Part shown: positions 781 to 19,672 of the stretch, one piece after another
Layout of the letters: every line of letters begins with the position of its first letter
How positions within the stretch are numbered: the first letter of the stretch is position 1
NCBI GenBank assembly: GCA_017656295.1
Contig: JACDOC010000010.1
Location: 1-64,000 of the forward strand
Reading direction: 5' to 3'
From: Bacillus sp. (in: firmicutes)
GTDB lineage: Bacteria; Bacillota; Bacilli; Bacillales; JACDOC01
Length of the DNA: 64,000 nt
Made by a program: the position numbers and the translations under genes
Notes under the pieces: model-generated
What the model was told of the DNA's origin: nothing
Database searches by the model: none
The model's input: the letters and a program-made list of their open reading frames with translations, nothing else

Positions 781-964
781 CGTGCCCCTCCTAGTTTTGA
801 GATTATTTATACTTATTTTATTTTCCATTTGTACAAAAAGAACTGTCATCTTCTACAGTGCGTACTTCTCTTTCCAAAAGTTTTTTATGAGCATCCTCAT
901 TTACGATGAATCAAGAACCTCGTATAATTATTTCGGTTATCAAAATATTGAAAGGATGTTCGTC

Positions 965-2164
965 ATGCCGAAACGGCTTTGGTATTTAATTATTGGAATG
1001 GTCGTTAACGTTACGGGCGCTTCATTTTTATGGCCATTAAATACAATTTATTTGCATGATTATTTAGGAAAATCGCTATCTGTCGCTGGTATGGTGTTAA
1101 TGCTTAATTCGGCAGCGAGCGTTATTGGAAATTTAGTTGGAGGACATCTGTTTGATCGCTTAGGTGGTTACCGTGCTATATTGATTGGCATTATGATTAC
1201 ATTATCGGCACTCATCGGATTAACACATTGGCACGGTTGGCCGCACTATCTGTTTTTTCTTTTATTCATAGGATTAGGATCAGGTATTGTGTTTCCAGCG
1301 ATGTATGCGATGGCTGGAACAACGTGGAAAGAAGGTGGCCGAAAAGCGTTTAACGCCATGTATGTTGCACAAAATATTGGCGTGGCTCTCGGCTCGGGGT
1401 TAGGTGGATTCATCGCTTCGATTTCGATTGACTATATTTTTATGGCAAACTTAAGTTTATATGTCGTGTTTTTGTTAGTAGCTGTTTTTTGTTATCGGGA
1501 AATAGGGAAAGCAGTGCAGTCTTCAACGAATGTCGTCAATGAAGCGAAGCCGATACGGAATCTTTCTCATATGTACGCGCTTCTCATTTTATGTGCCGGT
1601 TATTTACTATGTTGGGTCGGGTACGTTCAATGGCAAACGACGATCGCTACGTATACCCAACAGTTGCACATTTCGCTTCAAGAGTATAGCTTATTGTGGA
1701 CCATTAACGGTGTGTTAATTGTCACACTGCAACCATTGTTATCGTATGTTTTAAAAAAATTAAGCCCATCGTTAAAAATGCAAATTATTGTAGGGATTTT
1801 CATTTTTATCGGCTCGTTTGTCATCACAGCTTATGCGAAAGAGTTTGCGATGTTTGCTTTAGCGATGGTCATCATTACGTTAGGAGAAATTTTAATTTGG
1901 CCAGCAGTACCTACCGTAGCAAACGGATTAGCTCCAGAAGGCCGAGAAGGATTTTATCAAGGTATTGTGAATAGTGCGGCTACAGGAGGGCGAATGCTCG
2001 GGCCGTTGTATGGAGGATTGATGGTAGACTTATTCGGCATGGCGGTTCTTTTTATTACCTTAATTGCCTTATGTATTTTCTCTATTGTTTTTACGTTGGT
2101 GTACGATCACCCGTTAAAACGAAGCCTACCTTCTCCTAGGAAAAAAAGTGTGATTTCTTCGTAA
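965..2164 (+). CDS. MFS transporter (YttB-like)
   Basis: A major facilitator superfamily permease of 399 residues, the usual length for a 12-helix drug or metabolite transporter. The start MPKRLWYL at 965 follows a GAAAGGA ribosome binding site; the open frame extends upstream to 782 without one. The loop motif typical of MFS proteins is visible after helix 2 (GGHLFDRLGGYRAILIG). Helices 7-12 follow a charged central loop near residue 185. The C-terminus is basic and cytoplasmic. By position upstream of the yt region it resembles B. subtilis YttB, a putative efflux protein, but the substrate cannot be read from the sequence. The gene is followed by a terminator at 2261. Confidence 0.8.
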   Translation: MPKRLWYLIIGMVVNVTGASFLWPLNTIYLHDYLGKSLSVAGMVLMLNSAASVIGNLVGGHLFDRLGGYRAILIGIMITLSALIGLTHWHGWPHYLFFLLFIGLGSGIVFPAMYAMAGTTWKEGGRKAFNAMYVAQNIGVALGSGLGGFIASISIDYIFMANLSLYVVFLLVAVFCYREIGKAVQSSTNVVNEAKPIRNLSHMYALLILCAGYLLCWVGYVQWQTTIATYTQQLHISLQEYSLLWTINGVLIVTLQPLLSYVLKKLSPSLKMQIIVGIFIFIGSFVITAYAKEFAMFALAMVIITLGEILIWPAVPTVANGLAPEGREGFYQGIVNSAATGGRMLGPLYGGLMVDLFGMAVLFITLIALCIFSIVFTLVYDHPLKRSLPSPRKKSVISS

Positions 2165-2260
2165 AGTTATAAGTATCCCTAATTAATGTGGGTTAAAGGA
2201 TTGATTCATAATTAATACAAAGACAGCTAACTCTTCATTGTAGGGGAGCTTATTAAATTA

Positions 2261-2304
2261 AAAAAATCCCGTCCTTCATATTTTTAGAAGGAAGGATTTT
2301 TTTA
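2261..2304 (+). terminator. Rho-independent terminator after the MFS gene
   Basis: The stem TCCTTC (2272-2277) pairs with GAAGGA (2287-2292), with outer AATCC/GGATT pairing, and is followed by a run of seven T. It ends the MFS transcript about 100 bases after the stop codon. Confidence 0.7.
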
Positions 2305-2572
2305 TAGAAAAAAACTTTTTAACAATCATCCTGTAATTGTTCTACAAGAATTTTGTCGAAAATAGGTGGATATTTAGGTAGATAAATAAAGAACAAATGT
2401 TATTATAGACTAGAAGGGATTAAGATTGGGTGTCTGTCACCTATAGAAAAATATGTTTCCAAGGGAATAAAGGATTTGAATTTTCTTGCTAAAAAAACAA
2501 GGGAGTTATAAGAATAACCTAAAATATCTGTTCAAAAAAAGGGGCGCCTCCTCTATTACTACAAAAAATTTC
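2305..2572. other. Intergenic stretch before the riboswitch promoter
   Basis: AT-rich non-coding DNA. The only structure noticed is a short palindrome GGTGTCTGTCACC at 2429-2441. No gene, no strong hairpin terminator and no recognisable RNA was seen. Confidence 0.4.
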
Positions 2573-2601
2573 TTGACAGAATCCCAAATCGTATGGATAA
2601 A
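2573..2601 (+). promoter_or_regulatory. Sigma-A promoter of the pterin/partner-switching operon
   Basis: A perfect -35 hexamer TTGACA (2573-2578) is separated by 17 bases from GATAAA (2596-2601), a fair -10. Transcription from here would begin near 2608 and would include the whole GEMM riboswitch that starts around 2680. The placement supports riboswitch control of the operon. Confidence 0.6.
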
Positions 2602-2679
2602 TATAACTAGGACTTTTTGCTTAGTCGAAAAATCATACGTTTAAAAAAGGTTCTATAGTTTATCGATATGAGAAAGTGA

Positions 2680-2790
2680 AACATCCACGATAAAGGCAAA
2701 CTCATCGAAAGATGGGGACGCAAAGCTACGGGCCTAAGGAGAAATAACATACTCTATGGTCGCCGGGTTGCCGAAAAGGATTGGTATTTC
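2680..2790 (+). promoter_or_regulatory. Cyclic di-GMP-I (GEMM) riboswitch aptamer
   Basis: The core matches the GEMM/c-di-GMP-I consensus in order. AAAGGCAAAC is at 2692-2701. Next comes a GAAA-tetraloop hairpin (CATC-GAAA-GATG, 2703-2714), then GGGACGCAAAGCTACGGGCC with a CTAAGG tail, then the second hairpin closing on ATGGTCGCCGGGTTGCCG (2756-2773). The GAAA tetraloop and its receptor-side CCTAAGG are both present. The RNA class is established to bind c-di-GMP. It lies about 110 bases before folE and is followed by an intrinsic terminator, so it very probably sets expression of folE and the genes after it. Confidence 0.93.
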
Positions 2791-2791
2791 A

Positions 2792-2868
2792 GACATGTTT
2801 TTTACTTGTGTATTAGAACCTTTCTTTCAACATGTCCACCAATCTTTTTTGGTGGACTTTTTTTATTT
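2792..2868 (+). terminator. Riboswitch expression platform: terminator with competing antiterminator
   Basis: The terminator stem GTCCACCAA (2834-2842) pairs with TTGGTGGAC (2849-2857), followed by seven T. A competing nested helix is visible. GGATTGGT (2778-2785), at the 3' edge of the aptamer, can pair with ACCAATCT (2838-2845). GACATGT (2792-2798) can pair with ACATGTC (2830-2836). The competing helix would disrupt the terminator. Because one strand sits at the base of the aptamer, ligand binding would be expected to favour termination (an OFF switch); this direction is inferred. Confidence 0.8.
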
Positions 2869-2896
2869 TGTAAAAAAATAACATTTTGGAGGGATT

Positions 2897-3469
2897 ATGA
2901 TGACTGTTGAACTAAAAAAACAATTATTGGAAGAACATATTCGTGCGATTTTAGAATTGATTGGTGAAGATCCTAACCGGGAAGGGCTTCTAGACACACC
3001 TAAACGTGTAGCCAAAATGTATGAAGAAGTATTTTCAGGGGTTGGAATAAATCCCGAAACAGCTTTAACAACTACATTTGAAGAAAATTATGATGGTCTC
3101 GTTATCGTTAAGGATATTAATTATTACACATTCTGTGAACATCATTTGATTCCATTCTTTGGGAAAGCCCATATCGGCTATATTCCAAATAGACGAGTAG
3201 TTGGTTTAAGTAAGTTTGCACGTTTAGTAGAACTTGTCTCAAAAAGACCACAAGTACAAGAACGAATGACTCAACAAATTGCCGATGCTATCATGAATGT
3301 TCTTAAACCACAAGGCGTTATTGTTAGCGTGGAAGGTCAACACCTGTGTATGTGTGCAAGAGGAGTGAAAAAACCTGGTAGCTCCACAGTTACAACGGTA
3401 AAAAAAGGTATTTTTAACGAAAATGTTTCATTAGCAGAAGAATTTGAACGTGCTCTTTTAAGAGATTAA
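2897..3469 (+). CDS. folE: GTP cyclohydrolase I
   Basis: Converts GTP to 7,8-dihydroneopterin triphosphate, the entry step of folate and tetrahydrobiopterin synthesis. The 190-residue length is normal for the bacterial FolE type I enzyme. The zinc ligands are visible as Cys80 and His83 (CEHH) and Cys151 (HLCMCARG). The substrate-binding stretch GLLDTPKRVAKMYEE near residues 30-44 is intact. GGAGGG precedes tandem ATG codons at 2897 and 2900; the second has the better spacing, so the true N-terminus may be one residue shorter. It is the first gene after the c-di-GMP riboswitch. Its neighbours are PTPS and an SDR rather than folB/folK, which points to a biopterin-type product rather than folate. 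Confidence 0.96.
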   Translation: MMTVELKKQLLEEHIRAILELIGEDPNREGLLDTPKRVAKMYEEVFSGVGINPETALTTTFEENYDGLVIVKDINYYTFCEHHLIPFFGKAHIGYIPNRRVVGLSKFARLVELVSKRPQVQERMTQQIADAIMNVLKPQGVIVSVEGQHLCMCARGVKKPGSSTVTTVKKGIFNENVSLAEEFERALLRD

Positions 3470-3483
3470 AAGGAGGGATTTCT

Positions 3484-4302
3484 ATGTTGTACCTCTCTCG
3501 TAAAATGCGTTTTTCAGCTGCACATTTTTATCGTATCGATTCGTGGAGTGAGGAAAAAAACAAAAAAGTATTTGGCCCATGTAGTCACCCAAATGGGCAT
3601 GGGCATGATTATACGTTAGAAGTCATGGTTAAAGGACAAGTAGACCATAAATCCGGAATCGTTGTAAATGTTACCGATATCGATAAGCTGGTTAAGTCTT
3701 TTGTCCAAAAGGAATTAGACGGGAAGTTTTTAAATATAGAAAATCCTTATTTTAAAGAAAAGATCCCTACAACTGAAAATATTGTAACGTATATTTGGGA
3801 ATCGTTGGATGGGCGATTCGATAACTGTCAACTACATAAAATCCGTTTGCACGAAAATGATTTCTTGTATTCGGAGAAAGGGGAAAATTCGATGGTTCGA
3901 TTAACTAGAAAATACCACTTTAGTACGGCACACCGTTTACATAGTGAACAACTAACGGATGAAGAAAATCTTGCTTTATTTGGAAAGTGCAACAATCCTT
4001 ATGGCCATGGTCATAACTATTACTTAGAAGTAACAGTGAGCGGAAATCCTGACCCTATTACAGGAATGGTCGCAAATATTGCTGATATCGATCAAATTGT
4101 TGACCAAGAAGTGATACAAAAATTTGATCATAAACATTTAAATCTGGATACAGAGGAATTTAAATATTTAAACCCAACATCTGAAAATGTGGCGATTGTC
4201 ATTTGGGATCTGTTATCCAAAAAACTCCCGAACCTCTACAAAATCGGATTATATGAGACAGAAAAGAATTACTTTGAATATTATGGGCCGGAAAAGGAGT
4301 AG
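3484..4302 (+). CDS. Tandem-duplicated 6-pyruvoyltetrahydropterin synthase (PTPS/QueD family)
   Basis: PTPS converts dihydroneopterin triphosphate to 6-pyruvoyltetrahydropterin. The protein (272 residues) holds two copies of the fold, residues 1-135 and 137-272, whereas family members are normally single domains of 120-150 residues. Both halves keep the three zinc histidines (14, 39, 41; 150, 175, 177) and the catalytic Cys (33; 169) in an FGxC...GHGH arrangement like animal PTPS. The second half has the Asp215-His216 pair (FDHKHLN); the first half has Asp79-Gly80 (LDGKFLN), losing the histidine. The pterin-anchoring Glu is present in both (124; 258). The C-terminal half is therefore probably the active one. 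The gene is 14 bases after folE. Confidence 0.88.
   Translation: MLYLSRKMRFSAAHFYRIDSWSEEKNKKVFGPCSHPNGHGHDYTLEVMVKGQVDHKSGIVVNVTDIDKLVKSFVQKELDGKFLNIENPYFKEKIPTTENIVTYIWESLDGRFDNCQLHKIRLHENDFLYSEKGENSMVRLTRKYHFSTAHRLHSEQLTDEENLALFGKCNNPYGHGHNYYLEVTVSGNPDPITGMVANIADIDQIVDQEVIQKFDHKHLNLDTEEFKYLNPTSENVAIVIWDLLSKKLPNLYKIGLYETEKNYFEYYGPEKE
3892..4302 (+). other. Possible internal translation start giving a stand-alone second PTPS domain
   Basis: An in-frame ATG at 3892 (residue 137) is preceded by GAGAAAGGGG about 8 bases upstream and falls exactly at the border of the two PTPS halves. It could produce a 136-residue single-domain enzyme in addition to the full protein. This is inferred from spacing only. 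Confidence 0.35.
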
Positions 4303-4306
4303 AAGT

Positions 4307-5008
4307 ATGGAAAAGCATTTGCCATTAGTAGGAAAAACGATAGCTATTACAGGTTCAAGTAAAGGAATTGGAAGAGCTACAGCATTATTACTTCAAAGCC
4401 TAGGAGCAAACCTAGTATTAGGAAGCCGTAGCAACAAAGAGCATCTGTCAGAAAATGTATTATCCTTACCTTTAGATGTAACGAATGAACAATCCGTAAA
4501 AAACTTTTATGAACGAGCGGTTCAACAGTTTGGCACGGTGGATGTATTAATTAATAGTGCAGGTGTCGGAACGTTTGAGTCAATTATTGATTCTTCTACA
4601 GATGACTTTGACCAAATGCTTTCCGTGAATTTGAAAGGAACTTATTTAACTTGTAAATATTTCGGAAAACATATGGCTGAGCAAGAGAAAGGGCAAATCA
4701 TTAATGTTATCTCCATCGCTGGAACCATTGCGTTACCGGGATGTGGAGGTTATTCGGCGTCAAAATTTGGAGTATTGGGTTTAACGAAAGTGTTACAGGC
4801 AGAACTTCGTAAAAAAGGTGTTCAGGTAACAGCTATTCTACCCGGTGCAGTAAATAGCAGTTTTTGGGACCATATTGAGCCTAAACCGGACCTGTCCAAT
4901 ATGATCCCAACAGATACGGTTGCCAAACACTTACTTTATTTAATTACTCAACCACCAGGGGCATTTGTTGATGAAATTACCATCATGCCACCTCTAGGAA
5001 TCTTATAG
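4307..5008 (+). CDS. SDR-family reductase, likely sepiapterin/pteridine reductase
   Basis: A short-chain dehydrogenase of 233 residues. The start was placed at 4307 after AAGGAG; the frame is open upstream, inside the PTPS gene, but has no better start. The NADP(H) glycine motif TGSSKGIG is at residues 15-22, NSAG at 83-86, catalytic Ser136, Tyr149 and Lys153 (YSASK). Its place directly after folE and the PTPS gene makes it the natural third step, reduction of the 6-pyruvoyl side chain as done by sepiapterin reductase. Bacterial pteridine reductases such as PruA are also SDRs. The family is broad, so the substrate is inferred from context. It starts 4 bases after the PTPS stop codon, so translation is probably coupled. 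Confidence 0.82.
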   Translation: MEKHLPLVGKTIAITGSSKGIGRATALLLQSLGANLVLGSRSNKEHLSENVLSLPLDVTNEQSVKNFYERAVQQFGTVDVLINSAGVGTFESIIDSSTDDFDQMLSVNLKGTYLTCKYFGKHMAEQEKGQIINVISIAGTIALPGCGGYSASKFGVLGLTKVLQAELRKKGVQVTAILPGAVNSSFWDHIEPKPDLSNMIPTDTVAKHLLYLITQPPGAFVDEITIMPPLGIL

Positions 5009-5020
5009 GGGGTTCTTTCG

Positions 5021-5968
5021 TTGAGGAGGCTATTCAATAAGATTTTCAAAGAAGAAACTAAACTTTTAGCCCCATCTCTTCCTTCCAACTTATCTTATTC
5101 AGATTTTAACTTTATGACAAAAAGAGGTTTTCTTGGGAAGAAACTAAGTCAATATCTCGGTTTACATAAAGAGGAAGCAGATTCATTATTTTATCTTTCG
5201 TTCTCAAAACGGTCGTTTACCAATCCAGAGAAAGAAAAAAGAAATGAATTGATTCTCTATTTGAGTGAACGAATGTTAAAGTGGAGTGAACAAAAACTAG
5301 ATGTACCTTACCAAATTAAACGTTTAGATGTTCGACCTGATATACAGAATGCTATGTTAAAGGCCTATGATATATACAAAAATGACCTATTTTCTATACC
5401 TCATCTAGCTGAAAAACAACGATTGACTGGTTCATTTAATGATGAGAAATGGGAAGTATATCGGGATGTGATATTCGCTGCAACACAAGAGAAGTTTTTG
5501 CTTATTACAAAAGAAGAGGTGAACAAACATAAGGAAGGGATTGTGTTATGTGAAGGAACGATAAAAGAGCGTTCCGATATACCAATATGCCGTAATCTAG
5601 CCAAAGAGAGGCTGGAAGCAGAAGGGTTTAGCCATTCAACAATCATGAGTTGGTTATTAGTATTATCTGAAGCCATTACGAATACCATCAAGCATGCAGA
5701 AGAAGGAAAAATGACAATCATTAAAGATGAAAAGAACCATGAAATACGATTTATTATCGAGGACAAAGGACCTGGATTTGACTTGAAAGATTTACCTAAA
5801 AAGACTCTTTTGGCTGGATATTCAACCAAAAAATCTTTAGGCCAAGGCTTTACCCTTATGATGAAAATGGCGAAACGCGTGTTATTGTTTACTTCTTCAA
5901 AAGGTTCCATCATTATTTTGCTTTTTGATATTCGTAAGGAACATAAGGACAAATTGAACAATGGCTGA
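5021..5968 (+). CDS. HATPase-domain protein, RsbW/RsbT-like, with novel N-terminal domain
   Basis: The C-terminal ~110 of 315 residues form a GHKL ATPase of the anti-sigma-factor/serine-kinase type. The N box is SEAITNTIKHA (Glu217, Asn221), the G1 box is DKGPGF (248-253) and the G2 box is GQGFTLMM (274-281). Such proteins phosphorylate STAS partners and bind or release a target. The first ~200 residues are not a domain I recognise. The start is TTG at 5021, preceded by GGGGG at 8-base spacing. It stands in one operon with two STAS proteins and a PP2C phosphatase, the complete partner-switching set. No sigma factor gene is nearby, so the regulated target is unknown. Confidence 0.75.
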   Translation: MRRLFNKIFKEETKLLAPSLPSNLSYSDFNFMTKRGFLGKKLSQYLGLHKEEADSLFYLSFSKRSFTNPEKEKRNELILYLSERMLKWSEQKLDVPYQIKRLDVRPDIQNAMLKAYDIYKNDLFSIPHLAEKQRLTGSFNDEKWEVYRDVIFAATQEKFLLITKEEVNKHKEGIVLCEGTIKERSDIPICRNLAKERLEAEGFSHSTIMSWLLVLSEAITNTIKHAEEGKMTIIKDEKNHEIRFIIEDKGPGFDLKDLPKKTLLAGYSTKKSLGQGFTLMMKMAKRVLLFTSSKGSIIILLFDIRKEHKDKLNNG

Positions 5969-6046
5969 GAATTAAGCCTACCGTAAATTACATAAAGAGG
6001 TAGATTTTTAAACATCCTGAGATAAAACAAGAATGGGGATGAAAAA

Positions 6047-7132
6047 ATGAAAACACTATTACAAGATTCTATTTCCAAAACGATTAGTAGAACACTAAAA
6101 ACAGCCCACCTTATCGATGTTTTTTGGGAAAGATGGCTGGCTCATGGGCTTGATAAAGAGGATTTAGAGAAAGTTCGCGATGATATCAAATCCCTTGAGG
6201 GCTGGTTTCAATCTTGGGAAAGGTTAGCTGAAGAGAAACATAATAGAGCAAAAAAATTTGAAATCGAGGGACAATATAAGGAAGCGGAATATATGTACCG
6301 ACAAACAGCCCTATATTATAACCTCAATTATTGGATCGATCCAACGTATTCAGAGAAAAAACAATATTGGTATAACAAGTGTTTACAGTTTTTCTTAAAA
6401 GCTGACTCTTTATCAGAAGTAAAAACAATATATAAAACCATTTCGATTGATGATTTTTCTGCTTCAGGAAGAATACGGATTCCTTCTGACGCAAAAGGGT
6501 GCATTGTGATTATTAACCCGATCGATTCATCAAAAGAAGAGTTATTCAAGTATGAAAAGGATTTCATTGAAGCGGGATTTGCAACAGTAAGTTTTGACGG
6601 ACCTGGTCAAGGGGAGACGTTTATTTTAAACGGAGTAGTTGGAACACGAATAAGATGGGAAAAGTTCGTCAATCAGTTAATTAATGAAACTAGTGAAACC
6701 TTTTCAGAACTACCAATCTATTTATTTGGGACTAGTCTTGGTGCATCTTGGGTTTTATATGGAAATTCTCATCCAAAAGTAGCAAAGGCAGTTGCAGTAA
6801 GCCCTGCAGTAGAACTAGAAAAAATGAATCTACCAACCTATTTTATGGAACGTATTAAATGCTCATGTATTATAGAAGAAGGAGAAACACCAATTCCATT
6901 ATTTAATAAGATAAAATATCGCTCTCCTGTTCTCGTTTTTCATGGAAAGAAAGATATGATGGTTCCAAATAATGAAATGTATCATTTATTTCGAAAATTA
7001 CCGGTAGAAAAACAACTGATTGAATTCCAATATGAGGGTCATGTTTGTAATAACAGGCTTGATGAGATTAGAAAAATATCATTAATGTGGTTTTCTGGAA
7101 AATATGATTTTGAGAGAGGCTTATTGTTATGA
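6047..7132 (+). CDS. Alpha/beta hydrolase (FrsA-like esterase)
   Basis: A 361-residue serine hydrolase. The first ~135 residues are helical with Tyr/Trp-rich repeats (EAEYMYRQTALYYNLNYW), as in FrsA and dihydropseudooxynicotine hydrolase relatives. The hydrolase core follows with DGPGQGE (184-190) and the nucleophile elbow GTSLG (Ser230). The acid Asp303 (HGKKDMMVP) and His332 (EGHVC) complete the triad. The substrate is unknown. A 78-base gap separates it from the HATPase gene. Its stop overlaps the next start (ATGA at 7129), so it is translationally coupled to the membrane sensor. A role in producing or removing a signalling ester is possible but unsupported. Confidence 0.75.
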   Translation: MKTLLQDSISKTISRTLKTAHLIDVFWERWLAHGLDKEDLEKVRDDIKSLEGWFQSWERLAEEKHNRAKKFEIEGQYKEAEYMYRQTALYYNLNYWIDPTYSEKKQYWYNKCLQFFLKADSLSEVKTIYKTISIDDFSASGRIRIPSDAKGCIVIINPIDSSKEELFKYEKDFIEAGFATVSFDGPGQGETFILNGVVGTRIRWEKFVNQLINETSETFSELPIYLFGTSLGASWVLYGNSHPKVAKAVAVSPAVELEKMNLPTYFMERIKCSCIIEEGETPIPLFNKIKYRSPVLVFHGKKDMMVPNNEMYHLFRKLPVEKQLIEFQYEGHVCNNRLDEIRKISLMWFSGKYDFERGLLL

Positions 7133-8703
7133 AAATTAAAAATATAACATTACGCAGACAATTCCTAATAAGAATAGTTTCTGTGTTATTAATCATTGCT
7201 TTATTTTCTGGAGCGATTCAACTTTATTTTATGAAAGAACAAATTGTAAAACAGACAAATCAACAAGCTGAAGCTATAGCAAAAAATGTATTAAGAGGAT
7301 TGGAACAAACAGATTTAGCTACACAAACTATTGAACATCAAATAGATTTAAAATTAATTTCATATGCAAAACATATTGCTACCTTATTACAAGGGAGATC
7401 AGTTAATCAAATTACTCAAGAAGAGTTATTAAAAATTCGTGATGATTTAGGTTTAGCTGGGATTACTATATTCCAAGAAACTAAATCAAAAGATGATATT
7501 GTAGGGGTAGTTGCAACAGAGCAACAAGAAATTGGCTTTAGTTTTAAGAAGTTTGGCTATTACGAAGTTGCAAAAGTCCTAATAAGTGGAGAAAAACCTT
7601 TCATGCCAAGTGCAAACTTTTCGGATAAAAACATAATAGTACTGCCCATTTCCCAGTCTGGTTCGAATACAGATGAACCTGCATTTTTTAAATATGCTTA
7701 CTATCACCCCCCTTATACAGATTACTTTATTAATCCTTATATAGAAGCAAATGAAGTTTATAACTACACAGAGATCGTAGGACCAAAAGAAACAATAAAT
7801 AAATTAGTTAAAGAAAACGATATTGTATTAGAAATTGCAGTTTTAAATCCTAAAGTCTTCGCTAATCCATCACTTGAAAAACAGTTATACCCTCCATTAA
7901 AAAAAATCGAAGCTGGAAGTTTTGATTTAGAATCTAGTAAAGATAGAGAGATTTTAACGAAACCTACTATTAAAAAAGAATCTTATGTTGAAAAGATTAA
8001 TGGTAAAAAAGTATATAAAATGTTTCTTCCGCTCGATCAAAATAGGGTTATTTATCTGTCACTCGACTATGGAAAAATGAGTGCCCCGCTTTATCGTCAT
8101 TCGATTATTTTAATTGTTTCAGGCTTACTTTCATTGGTCATCCTATTCTTATTGACTGCTCGTTTTTTTAATCGAATCTATGAAAATATACAAAAGATTA
8201 AAAGGCAGATTAAATTGCTAGAAGAAGGTGATTTAACGGCCAAAAGTGAGGTAAATGACGGGAGCGAGTTAGAACAATTATCTAAAAGCACCAACCGTAT
8301 GGTAGATCAATTAAATAAACTTGTAAAGGATACACAAGACCAAGCAACTAAAACTCAACGACTATCCGTATTACTAGAAGCGGAAGCTTCCGAATCAGTG
8401 GAAAAAATGTATGAGTTATCAACGGAAGCTACGATGAAATCAAGGGAACAATTGTACGAAATCACAGAGCTTTTGGATGACATGGGAAATATTTTAAAAC
8501 CATATAAGCAAAATGAAAATATAGGAAATATCATCGAAAAAATAGAATTGTTGAAACAAATTGTGAATGATCGTACAGCAGCAACCACAGACATGACCAT
8601 CACTTTATCAGATTTACTTCAATCATTACATGGACAATCAAAAGAATTATCTGATATATCCAATACACTACTTGATTATATGGCCAAATTTAAACTTTCA
8701 TGA
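7129..8703 (+). CDS. Membrane sensor with extracytoplasmic domain and HAMP, no output domain
   Basis: A 524-residue protein. A first transmembrane helix at about 12-34 is followed by a ~290-residue extracytoplasmic region, possibly of the double-Cache type. A second helix is at about 324-345, then a HAMP domain (about 346-398; GDLTAKSEV) and a ~125-residue Glu/Lys/Ser-rich helical tail. It resembles the front end of a chemoreceptor or histidine kinase, yet no kinase, methyl-accepting or cyclase domain follows. In this operon the natural partner would be the PP2C phosphatase or the HATPase protein. The gene is notably AT-rich: one 60-base line at 7321 has 13 G/C. Confidence 0.75.
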   Translation: MKIKNITLRRQFLIRIVSVLLIIALFSGAIQLYFMKEQIVKQTNQQAEAIAKNVLRGLEQTDLATQTIEHQIDLKLISYAKHIATLLQGRSVNQITQEELLKIRDDLGLAGITIFQETKSKDDIVGVVATEQQEIGFSFKKFGYYEVAKVLISGEKPFMPSANFSDKNIIVLPISQSGSNTDEPAFFKYAYYHPPYTDYFINPYIEANEVYNYTEIVGPKETINKLVKENDIVLEIAVLNPKVFANPSLEKQLYPPLKKIEAGSFDLESSKDREILTKPTIKKESYVEKINGKKVYKMFLPLDQNRVIYLSLDYGKMSAPLYRHSIILIVSGLLSLVILFLLTARFFNRIYENIQKIKRQIKLLEEGDLTAKSEVNDGSELEQLSKSTNRMVDQLNKLVKDTQDQATKTQRLSVLLEAEASESVEKMYELSTEATMKSREQLYEITELLDDMGNILKPYKQNENIGNIIEKIELLKQIVNDRTAATTDMTITLSDLLQSLHGQSKELSDISNTLLDYMAKFKLS

Positions 8704-8715
8704 GAGGGAGAGCAT

Positions 8716-9033
8716 ATGTCGTTAACAGTTGAAAAAGAAGTTCAAGAAAACACCTTAATCCTTCAAATTAAAGGAGTTTTAGATATTTCAACTGCACATG
8801 TCATTGAACCTTATTTAGAAGGGATTGATCGTATCGAAACTGTCATCTTAGATTTTTCGGATCTAGAATTGATCGATTCAACAGGCATTGGTGCGATTAT
8901 AAATGCAATTTATTTATCTAAAGAAAAAAATTTTCAACTTAAACTTCAAGGAATGAACGAAATAACTCATCATGTCTTTGAAACAGTCGGTTTGTATCAG
9001 GTTTTAGATACTTTAAAAGGAGAGTTTGGTTGA
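8716..9033 (+). CDS. STAS-domain anti-sigma factor antagonist (RsbV-like)
   Basis: A single STAS domain of 105 residues, the RsbV/SpoIIAA length. The phosphorylation loop LIDSTGIG carries Ser55, the residue phosphorylated by RsbW-type kinases in this family. GAGGGAG precedes the ATG. The stop overlaps the start of the following phosphatase gene (TGATG at 9031-9035), which couples a substrate and its phosphatase. Expected role: bind the HATPase protein when dephosphorylated. Confidence 0.88.
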   Translation: MSLTVEKEVQENTLILQIKGVLDISTAHVIEPYLEGIDRIETVILDFSDLELIDSTGIGAIINAIYLSKEKNFQLKLQGMNEITHHVFETVGLYQVLDTLKGEFG

Positions 9034-9881
9034 TGTATAAAGATTATCTCACTTTTATTAAAGGAGAAACAACCTCAGACAATCAAAAGATCGCGGATAA
9101 AACTTTAGAGCGGGAGATTAACTTAGCTAGAAAGATACAAACTCAGCTGTTAAATGGAAAAATTCCTACATTTGAAGGTGGGGAACTAGCCGGTTCCTCT
9201 CTTCCTGCCAGATTAATTGGAGGCGATTATTACGATTTTTATCCTTTAGTGAATGGGAAGATACGAATGGTAGTAGGGGATGTAATGGGAAAAGGAATTC
9301 CTGCAGCCATGCTTATGATCTTAACTCGAGGTGCTTTCAGAAGTGCAGCTGAAAGTACCAATTGTCCAGCTGAAACCCTTACATCTATGAACCAAGCATT
9401 ATACGAAGATTTAAGAACATTAAAATCGTTTGTGACATTGTTTTGCGCAGATTACGATCCTAAAACTGGTATTTTTACGTATGCGAATGCAGGACATCTT
9501 CTTCCTCTTTATATGAACGGAAAAGATAAATCTATAGAAGAACTTCCAAAGGTAAGTGGAGTAATGTTAGGCGGAATTCCTAATCAAGTGTATAATGAGA
9601 TTTCTATACAATTAAATGAACAAGATATCGTATTCTTTTATACAGATGGGATTGTGGAAGCACAAAATAAAAATGGGGAACAATATAAATTAGAACGGCT
9701 TATACAAACGTTATTAGAAAATCATGGAAATAGTGTGAATGAAATTGAAAAAAGTGTGATGGACTCGGTCCGTCAATTTACGCAAGGTGTCCCTCAAAAA
9801 GATGATATCACAATGGTCCTTTTAAAAGTGAGTAAACAAAAATCGGATATTAACATCAAAGATTCCCTTTTAATGAATTAA
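9033..9881 (+). CDS. PP2C-type serine phosphatase (RsbU/SpoIIE family)
   Basis: A 282-residue protein phosphatase that would dephosphorylate the STAS partner. A short N-terminal helical linker (residues 20-42, LEREINLARKIQTQLL) is typical of the RsbU family. The metal-binding motifs GGDYYD (63-68), GDVMGKG (82-88), NAGH and YTDGI, and the C-terminal KDDIT, are all present. The ATG at 9033 lies 9 bases after AAAGGAGAG; a TTG one codon earlier is less likely. There is no RsbT-binding domain of RsbU length, so activation may come through the N-terminal helix or the HAMP sensor encoded two genes upstream. Confidence 0.9.
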   Translation: MYKDYLTFIKGETTSDNQKIADKTLEREINLARKIQTQLLNGKIPTFEGGELAGSSLPARLIGGDYYDFYPLVNGKIRMVVGDVMGKGIPAAMLMILTRGAFRSAAESTNCPAETLTSMNQALYEDLRTLKSFVTLFCADYDPKTGIFTYANAGHLLPLYMNGKDKSIEELPKVSGVMLGGIPNQVYNEISIQLNEQDIVFFYTDGIVEAQNKNGEQYKLERLIQTLLENHGNSVNEIEKSVMDSVRQFTQGVPQKDDITMVLLKVSKQKSDINIKDSLLMN

Positions 9882-9896
9882 AGGGGGAGGGGTATC

Positions 9897-11984
9897 ATGC
9901 AAAGTGTTGTTTCGAAAGGAAAAGATATTGAGGAAGCTATTGAATTGGGGTTAGAGTTATTAGAAACAAAAAAAGAAAATGTGAACATTGAAATCATTCA
10001 ATTTCCGACAAAAGGTTTTCTAGGTATCGGTTCGAAACCAGCAATTGTAAAGCTTACGAAGTTAGAATCGGTTGATTCACTACAACAACCTAATAAAAAA
10101 GATTTTGAAAACCCTATTGGATTAATGGAACAAATGGTCTCTGAAATGAATGTTGATAAAATTGCCGAACAATCTGAATCGAATTTATTAGAGCAGGACA
10201 ATCACATGGATACACTGGTATCGGACGTTCTTGTTGGTAAAGCATGGGTAAAAAATGGTATTTTATATTGTAAAGCATCTCCAACACATTTTCCAACCGT
10301 AACCATTGGCGAAGGAGTAAAATTATATCGAAATAATCAACTTGTGACAGAAAAAATGACGATTATTACAGACGATGATGTACTTGAAATAAAAGTTGAA
10401 AATGAAGAAAAGGAAACAAAATGGAAAATTTGGATAGATGAACCAAAATTAAAAGTTCTTTTATACGTTGAACCTGGTTATAAAATCACCCGAAAATTAC
10501 CTGATATAGAACCCGACCAACATATTGAACTGGTTGTACAGGAAAATAAAGAGATTTATAATACACTAAGCTATTCTGATGTAATTCAAAAGTTAGAATC
10601 GCTACGAGTGAAACACGACTTAATTCATCAAGGTGAAATTTTGAAAGCTCTTGAAGCAAAAGAACCGAGTACTTATGAAATTGGAACTGGTATAAAGGCA
10701 AAAGAAGGTAAAGATGGTTGGATTGAACTGAAAATCGATATACAGGCTCACAATGGTGTCACAGTAAATGAAGATATGAAAGTCGATTATCGAGAAATCA
10801 AAACCATTCCAGCTGTCGAAAGAGGTCAAGTGATTGGACTCATTCATCCCCCTATTCCTGGTCAACCAGGGGTAACTGTAACAAATGAACCTCTTCCAGC
10901 TAAACAAACTTATCCAATAGTACTTCAGAAGGGAAAAGGGATCATGACAGTTGATAACAAGATTGTTGCAACGGAATCTGGCCGTCCTCAAATTGAGCAA
11001 AAGGGACGTTTGGTCAAAGCATCCATTATGCCAAAACTTACTCATAATGGGAATGTAGATTTATCATCTGGCAATATCCGCTTTAAGGGGGACGTTGAGA
11101 TATTTGGTGACGTTGAGAAAAACATGATTGTTGAAGCGGAAGGAGATATTATTGTTCAGAAAACCGTAAATATGGCTTCTCTTATTGCTTCTGGAGCTAT
11201 TATTACTTATGGTAATATCATCAGTTCTGAGCTTTCAGCAGGCAAAAACAATCTGTTGATAGCAGAATTAGGACATTTACTGGGAATCATCCATCAAAAT
11301 GTAGAAAAAATGATAGCGGTCATTCAACAACTAACTCAATCTCCTGCTTTTAAATCTAGTGACTTTTCTAGGGGCGGATTACAACCATTAATTCAAATAT
11401 TGTTAGAGAAAAAGTTTAAAAGTTTTCCGCCGTTAGTCAAAAAATACGTTGAGATTGTAGGTAAGGGAGAAGATTTTTTAGATGATAATGTGTGGAGGGA
11501 AATAGCCGTTTCCTTAACGAAACTTTTTTTATCTTTAACGAATGAAGTGATCTCTTTAGATTGGATTATTCAATTATCCCAAAAAATGAAAGAACTTCAT
11601 GAAATTAGTAAATCTCCTGTTGAACCAAATTCTTATATCTTTATTCCAAGTGCTCTAAATAGCCGTATCTATAGTAGTGGCAATGTATTTGTTATAGGTC
11701 AGGGATGTATTAATACGAAGATTCATGCAGGTGGAGTGTTAAAAATTCATGGCATCATACGCGGTGGAGAAGTATACGGGAGATTAGGCGTTGAAATTAA
11801 TGAAACAGGTTCGGAAAGAGGAATATCTACAGTCATTGCTGTTCCACATGATCAAAAAATTAAAATTAAGAAAGCGATGGAAGGTACCATCCTTAAAATC
11901 GGAAACGCGAAACATACATTAACAGATACTAAATATGATGTGATGGCGTATGTAGATAAGAATGATCGAATGGTTTTCAAATAA
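9897..11984 (+). CDS. FapA-family (DUF342) protein with N-terminal Jag_N domain
   Basis: A 695-residue protein. Residues 1-52 form a Jag_N domain (KGKDIEEAIELGLELL then KGFLGIGSKPA). The FapA region follows from about 240 (VNEDMKVDYREIKTI... PPIPGQPG). The right-handed beta-helix, polymer-forming part is at about 390-440 and 610-670, interrupted by a long helical insertion (450-590). FapA proteins are known as cell-pole or flagellum-linked factors in Vibrio; their role in Bacillaceae is poorly known. It lies 15 bases after the phosphatase gene and 17 before a second STAS gene. It may be the structural output or scaffold of the switch; this is inferred. Confidence 0.85.
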   Translation: MQSVVSKGKDIEEAIELGLELLETKKENVNIEIIQFPTKGFLGIGSKPAIVKLTKLESVDSLQQPNKKDFENPIGLMEQMVSEMNVDKIAEQSESNLLEQDNHMDTLVSDVLVGKAWVKNGILYCKASPTHFPTVTIGEGVKLYRNNQLVTEKMTIITDDDVLEIKVENEEKETKWKIWIDEPKLKVLLYVEPGYKITRKLPDIEPDQHIELVVQENKEIYNTLSYSDVIQKLESLRVKHDLIHQGEILKALEAKEPSTYEIGTGIKAKEGKDGWIELKIDIQAHNGVTVNEDMKVDYREIKTIPAVERGQVIGLIHPPIPGQPGVTVTNEPLPAKQTYPIVLQKGKGIMTVDNKIVATESGRPQIEQKGRLVKASIMPKLTHNGNVDLSSGNIRFKGDVEIFGDVEKNMIVEAEGDIIVQKTVNMASLIASGAIITYGNIISSELSAGKNNLLIAELGHLLGIIHQNVEKMIAVIQQLTQSPAFKSSDFSRGGLQPLIQILLEKKFKSFPPLVKKYVEIVGKGEDFLDDNVWREIAVSLTKLFLSLTNEVISLDWIIQLSQKMKELHEISKSPVEPNSYIFIPSALNSRIYSSGNVFVIGQGCINTKIHAGGVLKIHGIIRGGEVYGRLGVEINETGSERGISTVIAVPHDQKIKIKKAMEGTILKIGNAKHTLTDTKYDVMAYVDKNDRMVFK

Positions 11985-12001: not shown

Positions 12002-12313
12002 ATGATTGAATATTCTTTGTACGATAGTAATGATCATTTAGATGTTAAATTAATTGGAGATTTGGATATAGATGGAACAGAAGTAGTAGAAGAAGAAATT
12101 ATTCCGAAGATGGAAAAATATAAAACTATCCATATTAACTTTGAAGGGATTCAGTTTGTGGATTCAACTGGAATGGGCTTACTAATGAATATGGTTCAAA
12201 ACCTGCAAGAAAAGGGTGTAAAGGTAACCGTATCTAACGTTAGACAAGATATAATGGATGTTTTTAATATTCTTCAACTTCCAGAAATTTTAGGTGAAGA
12301 GATATTTGTATAA
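12002..12313 (+). CDS. Second STAS-domain antagonist protein
   Basis: A 103-residue STAS protein with the phosphorylatable loop FVDSTGMG (Ser55). AGGAGAGGGAG precedes the ATG. It is the last gene of the operon. Two different STAS proteins with one HATPase and one phosphatase suggest either two inputs to one kinase or one STAS acting with FapA. The sequence differs clearly from the first STAS protein, so it is not a recent duplicate. Confidence 0.88.
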   Translation: MIEYSLYDSNDHLDVKLIGDLDIDGTEVVEEEIIPKMEKYKTIHINFEGIQFVDSTGMGLLMNMVQNLQEKGVKVTVSNVRQDIMDVFNILQLPEILGEEIFV

Positions 12314-12778: not shown

Positions 12779-13669
12779 ATGGCGGACAAAGTGAAGATTG
12801 GGTTAATCCAAGCGTCCCATGATGTGGATGGGAACGAAGCAGTCGACGTTCACAAAAAGGCGGCAATTGAAAAACATGTGAAACTCGTGGAAGATGCAAA
12901 GAAAAAGGGTGCCCAAATTATTTGTCTTCAAGAAATTTTTTACGGTCCATACTTCTGTGCTGAACAAAATCCGAAGTGGTATGACTCTGCCGAAGAAATC
13001 CCAGATGGACCGACAACGAAGTTATTCCAGGAGCTAGCCCGAGATTTAGGTGTCGTTCTTGTCGTTCCAATGTATGAACGAGAAGGTATTGCTACTTACT
13101 ATAACACAGCTGCTGTTATTGATGCGGATGGAACATATTTAGGGAAGTATCGAAAGCAGCATATTCCGCATGTCGGGGTAGGTAACGAAGGCTGTGGCTT
13201 TTGGGAAAAATATTACTTTAAACCTGGTAATCTAGGTTATCCGGTATTTGATACCGAGTATGCGAAAGTAGGGGTGTATATTTGCTACGATCGCCACTTC
13301 CCGGAAGGAGCGCGACTATTAGGATTAAAAGGAGCTGAAATCGTGCTGAATCCTTCCGCTACGGTGGCTGGTTTGTCCGAATACTTATGGAAATTGGAAC
13401 AGCCGGCTCATGCAGTAGCGAATGGGTATTACGTTGGCGCCATTAATCGTGTTGGATATGAAAGCCCTTGGAACATGGGTGAATTTTACGGCCAATCTTA
13501 TTTAGTCGATCCTCGTGGGAATTTTGTCGCCATGGGTAGTCGAGATAAGGATGAGGTTGTGATTGGTGAAATGGATAAAAAATTAATTCGAGAAGTGCGC
13601 GATACATGGCAATTTTATCGAGACAGACGTCCAGAAACGTACGGAGAAATGACGTCACTTGTTCCATAA
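12779..13669 (+). CDS. Beta-ureidopropionase (nitrilase/N-carbamoyl amidohydrolase family)
   Basis: Hydrolyses N-carbamoyl-beta-alanine or N-carbamoyl-beta-aminoisobutyrate to the beta-amino acid, CO2 and ammonia, the third step of reductive pyrimidine degradation. The protein has 296 residues with the nitrilase triad Glu52 (LQEIF), Lys126 (YRKQHIP) and Cys169 (YICYDRHFPEG). The start at 12779 follows AAAGGGAGG with 8-base spacing. It is the first gene of the catabolic operon, followed by preT and preA. N-carbamoyl-D-amino acid hydrolase is an alternative label from the same family, but the pathway context favours ureidopropionase. Confidence 0.9.
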   Translation: MADKVKIGLIQASHDVDGNEAVDVHKKAAIEKHVKLVEDAKKKGAQIICLQEIFYGPYFCAEQNPKWYDSAEEIPDGPTTKLFQELARDLGVVLVVPMYEREGIATYYNTAAVIDADGTYLGKYRKQHIPHVGVGNEGCGFWEKYYFKPGNLGYPVFDTEYAKVGVYICYDRHFPEGARLLGLKGAEIVLNPSATVAGLSEYLWKLEQPAHAVANGYYVGAINRVGYESPWNMGEFYGQSYLVDPRGNFVAMGSRDKDEVVIGEMDKKLIREVRDTWQFYRDRRPETYGEMTSLVP

Positions 13670-13675
13670 AAATTG

Positions 13676-13712
13676 AAACGATCGATGGATGGTATATTCA
13701 TCGGTCGTTTTA
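13676..13712 (+). other. Intercistronic hairpin between ureidopropionase and preT
   Basis: The arms AAACGATCGATG and CATCGGTCGTTT enclose an 11-base loop and are followed by only a few T. This could be a weak terminator or an mRNA-stabilising hairpin within the operon. Confidence 0.45.
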
Positions 13713-13743
13713 ACTACTGAAAAGGGCGAAGGGGGTAAACGGA

Positions 13744-15105
13744 ATGGCAAATGGGGTTGTAAAAGAAGATTTAAAGAAAAATTTTGAGGAAGTAAATCCG
13801 GGTTTAAACGACAGGGAAGCGTTAGAAGAAGCGTACCGATGTTTATATTGTTATGATGCCCCGTGCATTAAAGCATGTCCAACAGGAATCGATATTCCTG
13901 CATTTATTAAAAGAATAGCTACTGGAAACTTAAAAGGAGCCGCTAAAACGATTATGTCCGCCAATCCAGTCGGGGCGAGTTGTGCTCGCGTCTGTCCGAC
14001 AGAAGAACTTTGTGAAGGTGCATGTGTGTTAAATCATTCCACGAAACCAATTATGATCGGTGACTTACAGCGATATGCGACCGATTGGGCGATAAAAAAT
14101 GAGCAAGTTCTTTTCCAAGCTGGTAAGAAAAACGGTAAAAAAGTAGCCGTTGTTGGAGGGGGGCCAGCTGGCTTATCTGCTGCCAGAGAACTTGCTCTTT
14201 TTGGATATGAAGTCACCATTTTTGAAGCTGAAGCAGAGGCTGGGGGCTTAAATACGTATGGGATTGTATCGTTCCGCTTACCAAAGGCCATCTCCTATTG
14301 GGAAGTGCAACAAGTAAAAAGCTTAGATGTAAACATTCAAACAAACACGAAAGTTGGCGTAGACATCACAAAAGACGAGTTGCTTAACCAATTCGATGCC
14401 GTTGTTTTAGCCGTTGGGATGGGAAAAGTTCCTTCGTTACACATTGAAGGGGAACAATTAAAAGGGGTTTACGATGCTATCGAATTAGTGAAGGAAACAA
14501 AAACGAAAGAATTGACTGATGAGTTCATCGGAAAGCGGGTTGTGGTGATTGGTGCAGGGAACACCGCCATTGACGCTGCTACATGTTCCGTTCGATTAGG
14601 GGCTGAAAACGTCAAAATTTTATATCGCCGAACAAAGGAAGAAATGACAGCTTATGACTTTGAATATGAATTTGCGAAACAAGATGGTGTCGAGTTTCGT
14701 TGGCTGACCCAACCAAAACGAATCATTGGCGATGAGAACGGTCGAGTGGTGGCGATCGAATGTATCAAAATGAAGCTTGGCGAAAAAGGTGTAGATGGTA
14801 GAAGAAGACCAGTACCGATCGAAGGATCGGAATTCATCTTGCCTGTAGATGCCGTTATTAAGGCAATTGGTCAAATTAGACACATGCCACTTATTGAGCA
14901 TTTTGGCTTAGCACATAATGACGGTGTCGTACAAGTCAATCCGAAAACATATGAAACATCGGTCCAAAACGTGTACGCCTGTGGGGACGTAATTTTTGGT
15001 AAAGGCCAAGGGGAAGCAATGGTAGTAACAGCGGCACAACAAGGGAAGGAAGCAGCGTATGCCTTGCATCAACAATTATCCGAGTCCGTAAATAAAAACG
15101 TGTAA
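13744..15105 (+). CDS. preT: Dihydropyrimidine dehydrogenase subunit PreT (FAD/Fe-S)
   Basis: The electron-input subunit of NAD(P)-dependent dihydropyrimidine dehydrogenase, which works with PreA to reduce uracil and thymine. It has 453 residues. N-terminal [4Fe-4S] cysteines occur in two groups, Cys33/36/41/45 and Cys80/84/90/94. The FAD Rossmann motif GGGPAG is at 138-143. A second nucleotide motif IGAGNTAIDAA near residue 265 binds NAD(P)H. A C-terminal CGDVIFGKGQG segment closes the FAD site. The layout equals the N-terminal half of mammalian DPD. It lies 27 bases before preA. Confidence 0.93.
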   Translation: MANGVVKEDLKKNFEEVNPGLNDREALEEAYRCLYCYDAPCIKACPTGIDIPAFIKRIATGNLKGAAKTIMSANPVGASCARVCPTEELCEGACVLNHSTKPIMIGDLQRYATDWAIKNEQVLFQAGKKNGKKVAVVGGGPAGLSAARELALFGYEVTIFEAEAEAGGLNTYGIVSFRLPKAISYWEVQQVKSLDVNIQTNTKVGVDITKDELLNQFDAVVLAVGMGKVPSLHIEGEQLKGVYDAIELVKETKTKELTDEFIGKRVVVIGAGNTAIDAATCSVRLGAENVKILYRRTKEEMTAYDFEYEFAKQDGVEFRWLTQPKRIIGDENGRVVAIECIKMKLGEKGVDGRRRPVPIEGSEFILPVDAVIKAIGQIRHMPLIEHFGLAHNDGVVQVNPKTYETSVQNVYACGDVIFGKGQGEAMVVTAAQQGKEAAYALHQQLSESVNKNV

Positions 15106-15132
15106 CTATTAGGCAAAAGGGGGAACAGTGAG

Positions 15133-16416
15133 ATGGCCGATTTACGAACGAATTTAGCCGGAATTCAGTCGCCAAATCCATTTTGGCTCGCTTCAGCTCC
15201 GCCAACAAACTCTGGATATCAAGTCCAACGGGCGTTTGAAGCTGGGTGGGGCGGTGCGGTATGGAAAACGTTAGGAGATCCGATTTTAAACGTTTCTTCC
15301 CGCTTTGCTGCCTTAACGTTTAACGGGAACCGCGTCGCTGGTTTTAACAATATCGAACTCATTACTGATCGACCGCTTGATGTGAACTTACAAGAAATTT
15401 ATGAGACGAAAAAGAAATTCCCGGACCGGGCGGTAGTCGCGTCGTTAATGGTGGAGCCGAAAAGAGAAAAATGGCATGAAATCGTCAAACGAGTGGAAGA
15501 CGTAGGTGTGGATGGATTGGAACTAAACTTTGGCTGTCCGCACGGAATGGCAGAGCGAGGAATGGGGTCTGCTTCGGGACAAGTTCCGGAATTAGTTGAA
15601 AAGCAAACATATTGGGTAAAAGAAGTGGCTCAAACACCGGTGATTGTAAAGCTCACACCGAATATTACGGATATTACCGTTACAGCCGAGGCAGCGGTTC
15701 AAGGTGGAGCCGATGCCGTCAGTATGATCAATACTATTAATAGTTTAATGGGCGTTGATTTAGATACGTGGAACCCGATTCCACACGTAGGCGGGAGGGG
15801 AGCGCACGGGGGTTATTGTGGACCTGCTGTGAAACCGATCGCCCTCAACATGGTAGGCGAGTGTGCACGAAACCCACGTATTACCGTTCCGATTTCGGGA
15901 ATGGGAGGGGTTTCTGATTGGCGAAATGCGGTGGAATTTATGTTAATGGGTGCTACCAACGTTCAAGTTTGTACCGCTGTTATGCACCACGGCTTCCGAA
16001 TTGTCCAAGATTTGATTGATGGATTGAATAACTATTTAGATGAACGAGGAATTGCGTCAGTATCAGACATCGTCGGAAAATCCGTTGCAAAATATTCGGA
16101 TTGGGGCGACTTAGACTTAAATTATAAAGTCGTAGCTCGCATTAACCCGGACGTTTGTATTAATTGCAATAAATGCCATATTGCTTGTGAAGATACCTCC
16201 CATCAATGTATTGACATCGTGACAGAAAACGGAAAAGAGATCTTAAAAGTTCGTGAAGAAGATTGTGTCGGCTGTAACTTATGTTCAATTGTTTGCCCAG
16301 TGGATGGAGCGATTGATATGGTCGAAATTCCGAGCGAATTTGAACCGATGACATGGAATGAACGTCAAGCGTTAATTGGATCAGGTGCTGATTGTAAACT
16401 CGACTTGACGAAATAA
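15133..16416 (+). CDS. preA: Dihydropyrimidine dehydrogenase catalytic subunit PreA
   Basis: The catalytic FMN subunit that reduces uracil/thymine to dihydro forms. It has 427 residues. A dihydroorotate-dehydrogenase-like TIM barrel carries the active-site Cys135 in LNFGCPHGM, which corresponds to Cys671 of mammalian DPD. The C-terminus carries a two-cluster ferredoxin, CINCNKC and CVGCNLCSIVCP, that takes electrons from PreT. The ATG at 15133 follows an AAAAGGGGGAA ribosome binding site. The next gene, dihydropyrimidinase, starts 23 bases later. Confidence 0.94.
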   Translation: MADLRTNLAGIQSPNPFWLASAPPTNSGYQVQRAFEAGWGGAVWKTLGDPILNVSSRFAALTFNGNRVAGFNNIELITDRPLDVNLQEIYETKKKFPDRAVVASLMVEPKREKWHEIVKRVEDVGVDGLELNFGCPHGMAERGMGSASGQVPELVEKQTYWVKEVAQTPVIVKLTPNITDITVTAEAAVQGGADAVSMINTINSLMGVDLDTWNPIPHVGGRGAHGGYCGPAVKPIALNMVGECARNPRITVPISGMGGVSDWRNAVEFMLMGATNVQVCTAVMHHGFRIVQDLIDGLNNYLDERGIASVSDIVGKSVAKYSDWGDLDLNYKVVARINPDVCINCNKCHIACEDTSHQCIDIVTENGKEILKVREEDCVGCNLCSIVCPVDGAIDMVEIPSEFEPMTWNERQALIGSGADCKLDLTK

Positions 16417-16439
16417 ACGACAAAAGGGGAGGAGATTGG

Positions 16440-17852: not shown

Positions 17853-17863
17853 GGATATAAACT

Positions 17864-17893
17864 GTTGCTTGACCGAGCGACCGGTCAAGCAAC
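17864..17893 (+). promoter_or_regulatory. Perfect 12-bp intercistronic hairpin before the permease gene
   Basis: GTTGCTTGACCG (17864-17875) pairs perfectly with CGGTCAAGCAAC (17882-17893) around a 6-base loop, 11 bases after the hydA stop codon. No T-run follows, so it is not a standard terminator. It may stabilise the upstream mRNA, limit read-through or bind a protein. Confidence 0.7.
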
Positions 17894-19665: not shown

Positions 19666-19672
19666 ACCTAAT

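Follow-up and report, generated by a model that had tools for sequence, protein, structure and literature searches.

The window analysed here is a stretch of 64,000 nucleotides from a Bacillus sp. contig. It encodes a protein in which two 6-pyruvoyltetrahydropterin synthase (PTPS) domains follow one another, and the first of them lacks the catalytic histidine. The question is what such a half contributes: is it dead, is it altered, or does it belong to an active site shared with its neighbour?

A tandem PTPS with one changed residue

The ORF at 3484-4302 starts with ATG and is preceded by a strong ribosome-binding site, aaaggaggg, at about 3470-3478. The gene and the residues discussed below are:

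3484..4302, + strand: tandem 6-pyruvoyltetrahydropterin synthase, 272 aa, PF01242 twice; AF2 model with pLDDT 93.3 and pTM 0.89
3484..3894, + strand: first half (N), putative orthologue of acidobacterial copy a (see below), with H14, C33, H39, H41, D79-G80, E98 and E124
3580..3582, + strand: codon of Cys33, catalytic Cys of the first half, invariant in 40/40 Bacillota
3718..3723, + strand: Asp79-Gly80 in the first half, at the position of the usual PTPS Asp-His; Gly in 39/40
3895..4299, + strand: second half (C), with all catalytic residues and putatively orthologous to acidobacterial copy b; over this half 51% identical to human PTPS 3i2b, TMt 0.93
3988..3990, + strand: codon of Cys169, catalytic Cys of the second half, from the alignment to rat PTPS and the conservation set
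4126..4131, + strand: Asp215-His216, invariant catalytic pair of the second half, from the alignment to rat PTPS; 40/40

The original prediction of a tandem PTPS is borne out by the two PF01242 domains in the ORF. As the reference for catalytic residues we used rat PTPS (His23, Cys42, His48, His50, Asp88, His89, Glu107 and Glu133). Against it, both halves retain the zinc ligands and the catalytic Cys, as had been claimed. The second half has H150, C169, H175, H177, D215 and H216, with Glu at both Glu positions. The first half has one of the eight catalytic residues changed, Gly80 standing for the His, and the difference described earlier between Asp215-His216 and Asp79-Gly80 is real. A complete Cys/Asp-His triad is present in the second half and in the pair of halves; the first half by itself has Asp-Gly.

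In terms of family, both halves carry CxxxxxHGH and three zinc His in the PF01242 T-fold. CxxxxxHGH is the signature of PTPS-II, the tetrahydrobiopterin type (PMC5041015), and both halves fall in that class. Identity as QueD (PTPS-I) was rejected. QueD has the T-fold family in common, but differs by its CxxxHGH motif and its queC-queE context, and a true QueD is encoded elsewhere in this genome (C16), between QueC and QueE. The second half is 51% identical to human PTPS and about 30% to E. coli QueD, which agrees with the earlier view that the halves are nearer to animal PTPS. PTPS-III, the folate-branch type with ExxHGH instead of the Cys, was likewise rejected, as Cys33 and Cys169 are both present.

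The altered half is conserved

Of 40 unique homologues from Bacillota, 39 retain Gly80 and one has Ser there; Asp79 is retained in 38. None of the 40 varies at the other six first-half site positions (H, C, H, H, E, E). Only 26 of the 137 columns of this half are invariant overall, and the chance that all six site residues would be among them is about 5e-5 if columns are independent. In the second half, D215-H216 and all triad residues are invariant (40/40), while the pterin Glu is replaced by Asp in 7/40.

Judged by this conservation, Gly80 is neither chance nor drift. That the first half is a dead relic is ruled out by the six invariant site residues. As for a neighbouring residue that might supply the missing His, which had been raised as an objection to the loss, no substitute is found near Gly80 in the first half, where the local sequence is KELDGKFLN.

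Work by Nar in 1994 and by Ploom in 1999 is said to have paired Cys42 from one subunit with Asp88/His89 from another. The title of a 1995 paper by Burgisser, to which PMC7546909 refers, also calls the PTPS triad of the animal enzyme intersubunit. Therefore a half without the His is not dead on that account. Describing one half as short of its catalytic histidine, as was done earlier, suggests a dead or altered half and is wrong or incomplete, given an intersubunit triad and a first half that keeps its remaining catalytic residues.

Relatives and a probable old duplication

A homologue scan over 84,980 species found the tandem PTPS in many Bacillota (Bacillus, Domibacillus, Robertmurraya, Paenibacillus, Brevibacillus, Pontibacillus and others), and also in two Poribacteria, one Chloroflexi and one Phycisphaerae MAG. 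Its distribution is patchy in the order of the window, with 8 of 199 genomes. In Acidobacteria the two PTPS domains are separate adjacent genes, here called copies a and b. Within the class of one acidobacterial host, a PTPS gene is present in 212 of 250 sampled genomes, nearly always in exactly two copies.

In the tree, the N halves of Bacillota group with acidobacterial copy a, while the C halves and copy b stand apart (support 88-92, from few columns). One duplication would therefore explain both the fused and the unfused forms. We thus suggest, with moderate support, that the halves of the tandem PTPS and the acidobacterial copies stem from one old duplication.

Complementary losses in acidobacterial pairs

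Catalytic residues were tabulated for 116 acidobacterial a/b pairs and rechecked without alignment. Copy a keeps Asp-His in 116/116 and has lost the Cys in 48, a count that includes loci L189 and L240, in which a Cys stands one residue later. Copy b keeps the Cys in 116/116 and has lost Asp-His in 37. Fisher tests give 1.5e-17 for Cys loss (48 in a vs 0 in b) and 4.7e-13 for Asp-His loss (37 in b vs 0 in a). The zinc ligands are retained with a single exception.

The mixed site, made of the Cys of b and the Asp-His of a, is intact in all 116 pairs. The reverse mixed site, Cys of a with Asp-His of b, is intact in only 51. A complete same-type site is missing altogether from 20 pairs, or from 13 when counted most strictly. 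Losses are repeated: a quick tree gives about 18 changes for the Asp-His of b, 4 for the Cys of a and about 8 for the state in which both are lost. We looked for a further PTPS in six genomes with pairs of this last kind and found, where there was any match, only a distant QueD-like gene.

The mixed site is always kept while same-type sites are lost, and therefore the simplest reading is that a and b form an obligate hetero-oligomer. The comparative evidence for it is strong.

In copy a of two loci (L044:5986-6450 and L069:5998-6432) a shortened loop, GIESQTHGHNY or GLESQTHGHNY, replaces the Cys loop. It leaves a Glu near the HGH and recalls PTPS-III, with a different spacing.

Which site works in the fused protein

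Polarity in the Bacillota proteins is opposite to that in Acidobacteria: the N half keeps the Cys but has Asp-Gly, and the C half is complete. In the poribacterial fusions it is the N Cys that is missing (T/M), which is the acidobacterial polarity.

One explanation of the fused proteins is that same-type C-C sites do the work, Cys169 pairing with Asp215-His216, and that the N half is a non-catalytic partner that fixes the assembly or binds product. All 47 fused proteins counted have a complete C half, and the triad of that half is invariant in the 40 Bacillota sequences. In two fused proteins the C half is even intact beside an N half that has decayed. The Phycisphaerae tandem PTPS (L045:5448-6254) has an N half without essentially all catalytic residues, and a second tandem copy beside a sensor-GGDEF-EAL gene in genome G196 (L093:1495-2301) has one without Cys and zinc ligands. 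As these two allow a C-C site only, a mixed-site rule for all fused proteins was rejected, and a same-type site may also work in fused proteins. For the Bacillota form, however, the C-C explanation leaves six other N-half site residues, Cys33 included, invariant across 40 divergent sequences. It also has to meet the constancy of Cys33 where the Cys of copy a is lost in 48/116, and the mixed kind of site that all 116 unfused pairs preserve. We regard it as possible but rather doubtful.

Both Cys are invariant in Bacillota, and therefore conservation does not tell which one works. The first half keeps its other catalytic residues, and so is more likely to carry a full site, completed by His216 of its partner, than to carry none. 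We favour Cys33 of the first half with Asp215-His216 of the second as the likely site, since unfused relatives preserve mixed sites, since Cys33 is not decaying as the Cys of copy a does, and since the pterin Glu of the second half is relaxed to Asp in 7/40. Under either model, going by the sequences, one type of site lacks the His yet is conserved.

The scheme that we propose is that the protein would be a bimodular PTPS-II-type synthase of the tetrahydrobiopterin branch, and that ancient duplicates became unequal partners of one hetero-oligomer, separate as a/b in Acidobacteria and fused as N/C in Bacillota and Poribacteria. Each site would take zinc, Cys and Glu from one T-fold and Asp-His from another, as in animal PTPS. 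The complete site would most likely combine the zinc, Cys33 and Glu of the first half with Asp215-His216. The reciprocal site, Cys169 with Asp79-Gly80, would be His-less, kept and altered, serving substrate or product binding or partial chemistry.

Predicted fold and assembly

Prediction of the structure, proposed earlier as a check, supports the tandem T-fold arrangement: the AF2 model is confident and the whole chain aligns to tandem T-folds. Matches to the C half include human and rat PTPS, and over both halves the model aligns to uricase (Z 13.1 over 226 residues, rmsd 4.5) and GCYH-IB (Z 11.6). Uricase and GCYH-IB (FolE2) also have two T-folds side by side per chain, but their chemistry is different and identity is little (about 10%). 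Bimodular QueF, with its tandem T-folds, has an architecture like that of the tandem PTPS.

Only about 4 residues link the final strand of N to the opening strand of C, a topology that would place the two halves side by side in one barrel. A short linker with both halves in one barrel would call for an even number of T-folds, which suggests a closed, uricase-like ring unlike the trimeric ring of PTPS. The likeness to animal (rat/human) PTPS-II covers the fold, the zinc ligands, CxxxxxHGH, the Glu residues and the intersubunit Cys/Asp-His triad. In animals six identical single-domain subunits form the enzyme, as a dimer of trimers (PMC7546909), whereas here each chain has two unequal halves, one with Asp-Gly. 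The earlier suggestion that the tandem arrangement fixes the assembly appears plausible.

The gene cluster of the window

The earlier reading of the protein is partly supported; it had missed the cluster in which the gene lies, with GTP cyclohydrolase I (GCHI), a short-chain dehydrogenase (SDR) and signalling genes. The cluster genes around the tandem PTPS are:

782-2164: MFS transporter ahead of folE, a neighbour that related loci do not conserve; it might export a pterin
2897..3469, + strand: FolE, GTP cyclohydrolase I, cluster copy (NF006826 6.9e-79, PF01227 1.9e-74)
4307..5008, + strand: SDR, candidate sepiapterin/pteridine reductase (PF00106 1.2e-49); an SDR gene is in 32/32 Bacillota loci
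5021..5968, + strand: RsbW/SpoIIAB-like HATPase, partner-switching kinase (PF13581 4.8e-10); in 22/32 loci
6047..7132, + strand: alpha/beta hydrolase (PF12146 9.4e-13); in 22/32 loci
7129..8703, + strand: membrane sensor with extracytoplasmic Cache-like domain, HAMP and coiled coil (alignment, AF2 model, Cache/extracytoplasmic PAS matches)
8716..9033, + strand: STAS anti-sigma-factor antagonist (PF01740 3e-14)
9030..9881, + strand: SpoIIE/RsbU-type PP2C phosphatase (PF07228 1.8e-52)
9897..11984, + strand: Jag_N-FapA (DUF342-type) protein, possible output (PF14804, PF20250, PF03961)
12002..12313, + strand: second STAS-like ORF, probable cluster end, from position and sequence; STAS-like ORFs follow FapA in related loci

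The PTPS gene is thus linked to both GCHI and SDR genes. For the SDR, sepiapterin reductase 2bd0 is one of many similar matches, and the protein is not specifically close to sepiapterin reductase. Elsewhere the genome has a second folE (C7), adjoining an mtrB-like ORF. With this second folE and a separate QueD, the cluster would therefore be an additional pterin set with a dedicated purpose. The neighbouring GCHI would supply dihydroneopterin triphosphate, the tandem PTPS would convert it to 6-pyruvoyl-tetrahydropterin, and the adjacent SDR would reduce this to a biopterin-type tetrahydropterin.

Downstream, the block at 12779-21648 looks like a reductive pyrimidine/hydantoin degradation cluster (ORFs judged by eye), unrelated to the pterin cluster. 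Its genes resemble a nitrilase-type amidohydrolase, an FAD/Fe-S oxidoreductase, a dihydropyrimidine dehydrogenase, a dihydropyrimidinase, an NCS1-type transporter and a PucR-like regulator.

Related loci and the sensor

Across 32 Bacillota loci with the tandem gene, an SDR and a signalling gene (RsbW, sensor or GGDEF-EAL) are present in all 32; 21 of them have FolE and 15 an AMP ligase. A signalling gene is found in 0 of 20 control loci. Gene order varies. In Paenibacillus and others the tandem PTPS follows the SDR and adjoins a sensor-HAMP-GGDEF-EAL protein, the first 405 residues of which are homologous to the window sensor. A third arrangement is GGDEF-EAL, PTPS, hydrolase, GGDEF, SDR.

In the AF2 model of the window sensor, two TM helices flank an extracytoplasmic domain of Cache/PAS-like fold, and HAMP comes next (2.8e-4, slightly short of the Pfam cut-off). 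That fold matches the sensor domains of WalK, CitA, KinD, DctB and chemoreceptors (Z 9-12.5). The sensor family is present in 8/8 genomes with the tandem PTPS and in 21/191 others (P 8e-8). Because the related loci have a common ancestry, such P values overstate their independence, although gene order and output modules vary. A role as exclusive pterin receptor was rejected, given those 21 genomes.

Among the inspected non-tandem loci, only two have folE beside the sensor (L108:6649-9918 and L113:4688-8106). There the sensor, as a GGDEF-EAL protein, directly adjoins folE near a thioredoxin-reductase-like gene, and no tandem PTPS is present. The window's own genome encodes the sensor domain once more (L105, C12:16000-30000, at 5851-8082), there fused to HAMP-PAS-HisKA-HATPase, a third output type.

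The AMP-ligase-like gene (L020:9821-11290 and 14 other loci) usually lies between hydrolase and sensor, and is not in the window cluster. It suggests an acylated pterin or another modification. This bears on a further explanation, that the His-less site has been neofunctionalised (e.g. for a tautomerisation or side-chain step) so that the product would be a modified pterin in place of 6-pyruvoyl-tetrahydropterin. Gly80 is indeed kept as though selected, AMP-ligase-like and alpha/beta hydrolase genes occur in 15 and 22 of the 32 loci, and acylated tetrahydropterins (pepteridines, PMC5384830) can be products of PTPS-containing clusters. Yet both halves have the standard PTPS-II motif, and the AMP ligase is missing from the window cluster. 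We find this explanation unlikely.

A signal or a cofactor

A pterin product could serve as a cofactor, the cluster making BH4 for nitric oxide synthase (NOS) or an aromatic amino acid hydroxylase, with the neighbouring signalling genes incidental. The window genome has a NOS gene, and hydroxylase genes are found in 3/8 genomes with the tandem PTPS. NOS, however, is not enriched among genomes with the tandem gene (5/8 vs 126/191, P 1.0), no aromatic hydroxylase is encoded in the window genome, and the hydroxylase link elsewhere is weak (P 0.09). Both were rejected as pterin consumers. Adjacency to signalling genes in 32/32 loci against 0/20 controls also speaks against incidental neighbours, and we consider the cofactor role quite improbable.

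The GCHI-PTPS-SDR cluster with its signalling genes is instead a candidate pterin-signalling module, a hypothesis that can be tested. The product would probably feed a pterin-responsive circuit, with Cache sensor and partner switching here and GGDEF-EAL in relatives. In its full form, which we advance only tentatively, Bacillota would use a biopterin-type tetrahydropterin from a dedicated GCHI, a bimodular PTPS and an SDR as signal for a Cache receptor with exchangeable output (partner-switching phosphatase/kinase, GGDEF-EAL or histidine kinase), independent of PruR and with a PTPS that is obligately two-part with shared sites.

Pterin signalling has been described for Proteobacteria, and biopterin-type molecules are called rare in bacteria (2026 review, PMC13259868). 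The proteobacterial PruA-PruR-DcpA system (PMC13259868) is alike in that genes for making or reducing a pterin, with an SDR-type reductase, are linked to a gene for a GGDEF-EAL membrane protein that has an extracytoplasmic domain. It differs from the present case, which has GCHI-PTPS-SDR of the biopterin type, a Cache-like sensor, Gram-positive hosts and an output that can be partner switching or a histidine kinase. No SUOX-like gene, as expected for PruR (a SUOX-fold periplasmic pterin-binding protein), is among the annotated cluster genes at 782-11984. The Photorhabdus pepteridine cluster also combines GCHI, PTPS and pteridine reductase in one cluster affecting regulation, but has NRPS/pyruvate-dehydrogenase parts; a tandem PTPS is not mentioned in the part of that account considered (PMC5384830).

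Implications

Our search of the open-access subset of the literature found no published account of a tandem or heteromeric PTPS, or of Bacillus biopterin with c-di-GMP. Comparison across genomes argues strongly for a two-part PTPS. The explanation as a whole, a bimodular PTPS-II with unequal halves, mixed sites and a pterin-responsive output, seems to us somewhat more likely than not. The data themselves establish the sequence, its conservation, the complementary losses, the gene linkage and the predicted fold, while the catalytic chemistry, the Cys/His pair at work in Bacillota, the size of the ring and the signalling role are inferred from them.

PTPS is the textbook homohexamer. The 116 pairs point to one bacterial phylum that uses unequal partners, one bringing the Cys and the other the Asp-His, and the fused Bacillota form probably does so too. 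Such partners put the proposed intersubunit triad to the test in nature. The “missing” catalytic residue would then mark a division of labour rather than a loss of function, which calls for caution in annotating paired paralogues as pseudoenzymes. Lastly, should the linked Cache sensor indeed read the product, Gram-positive bacteria would join the Proteobacteria as users of pterin signalling, in their case through a biopterin-type molecule.
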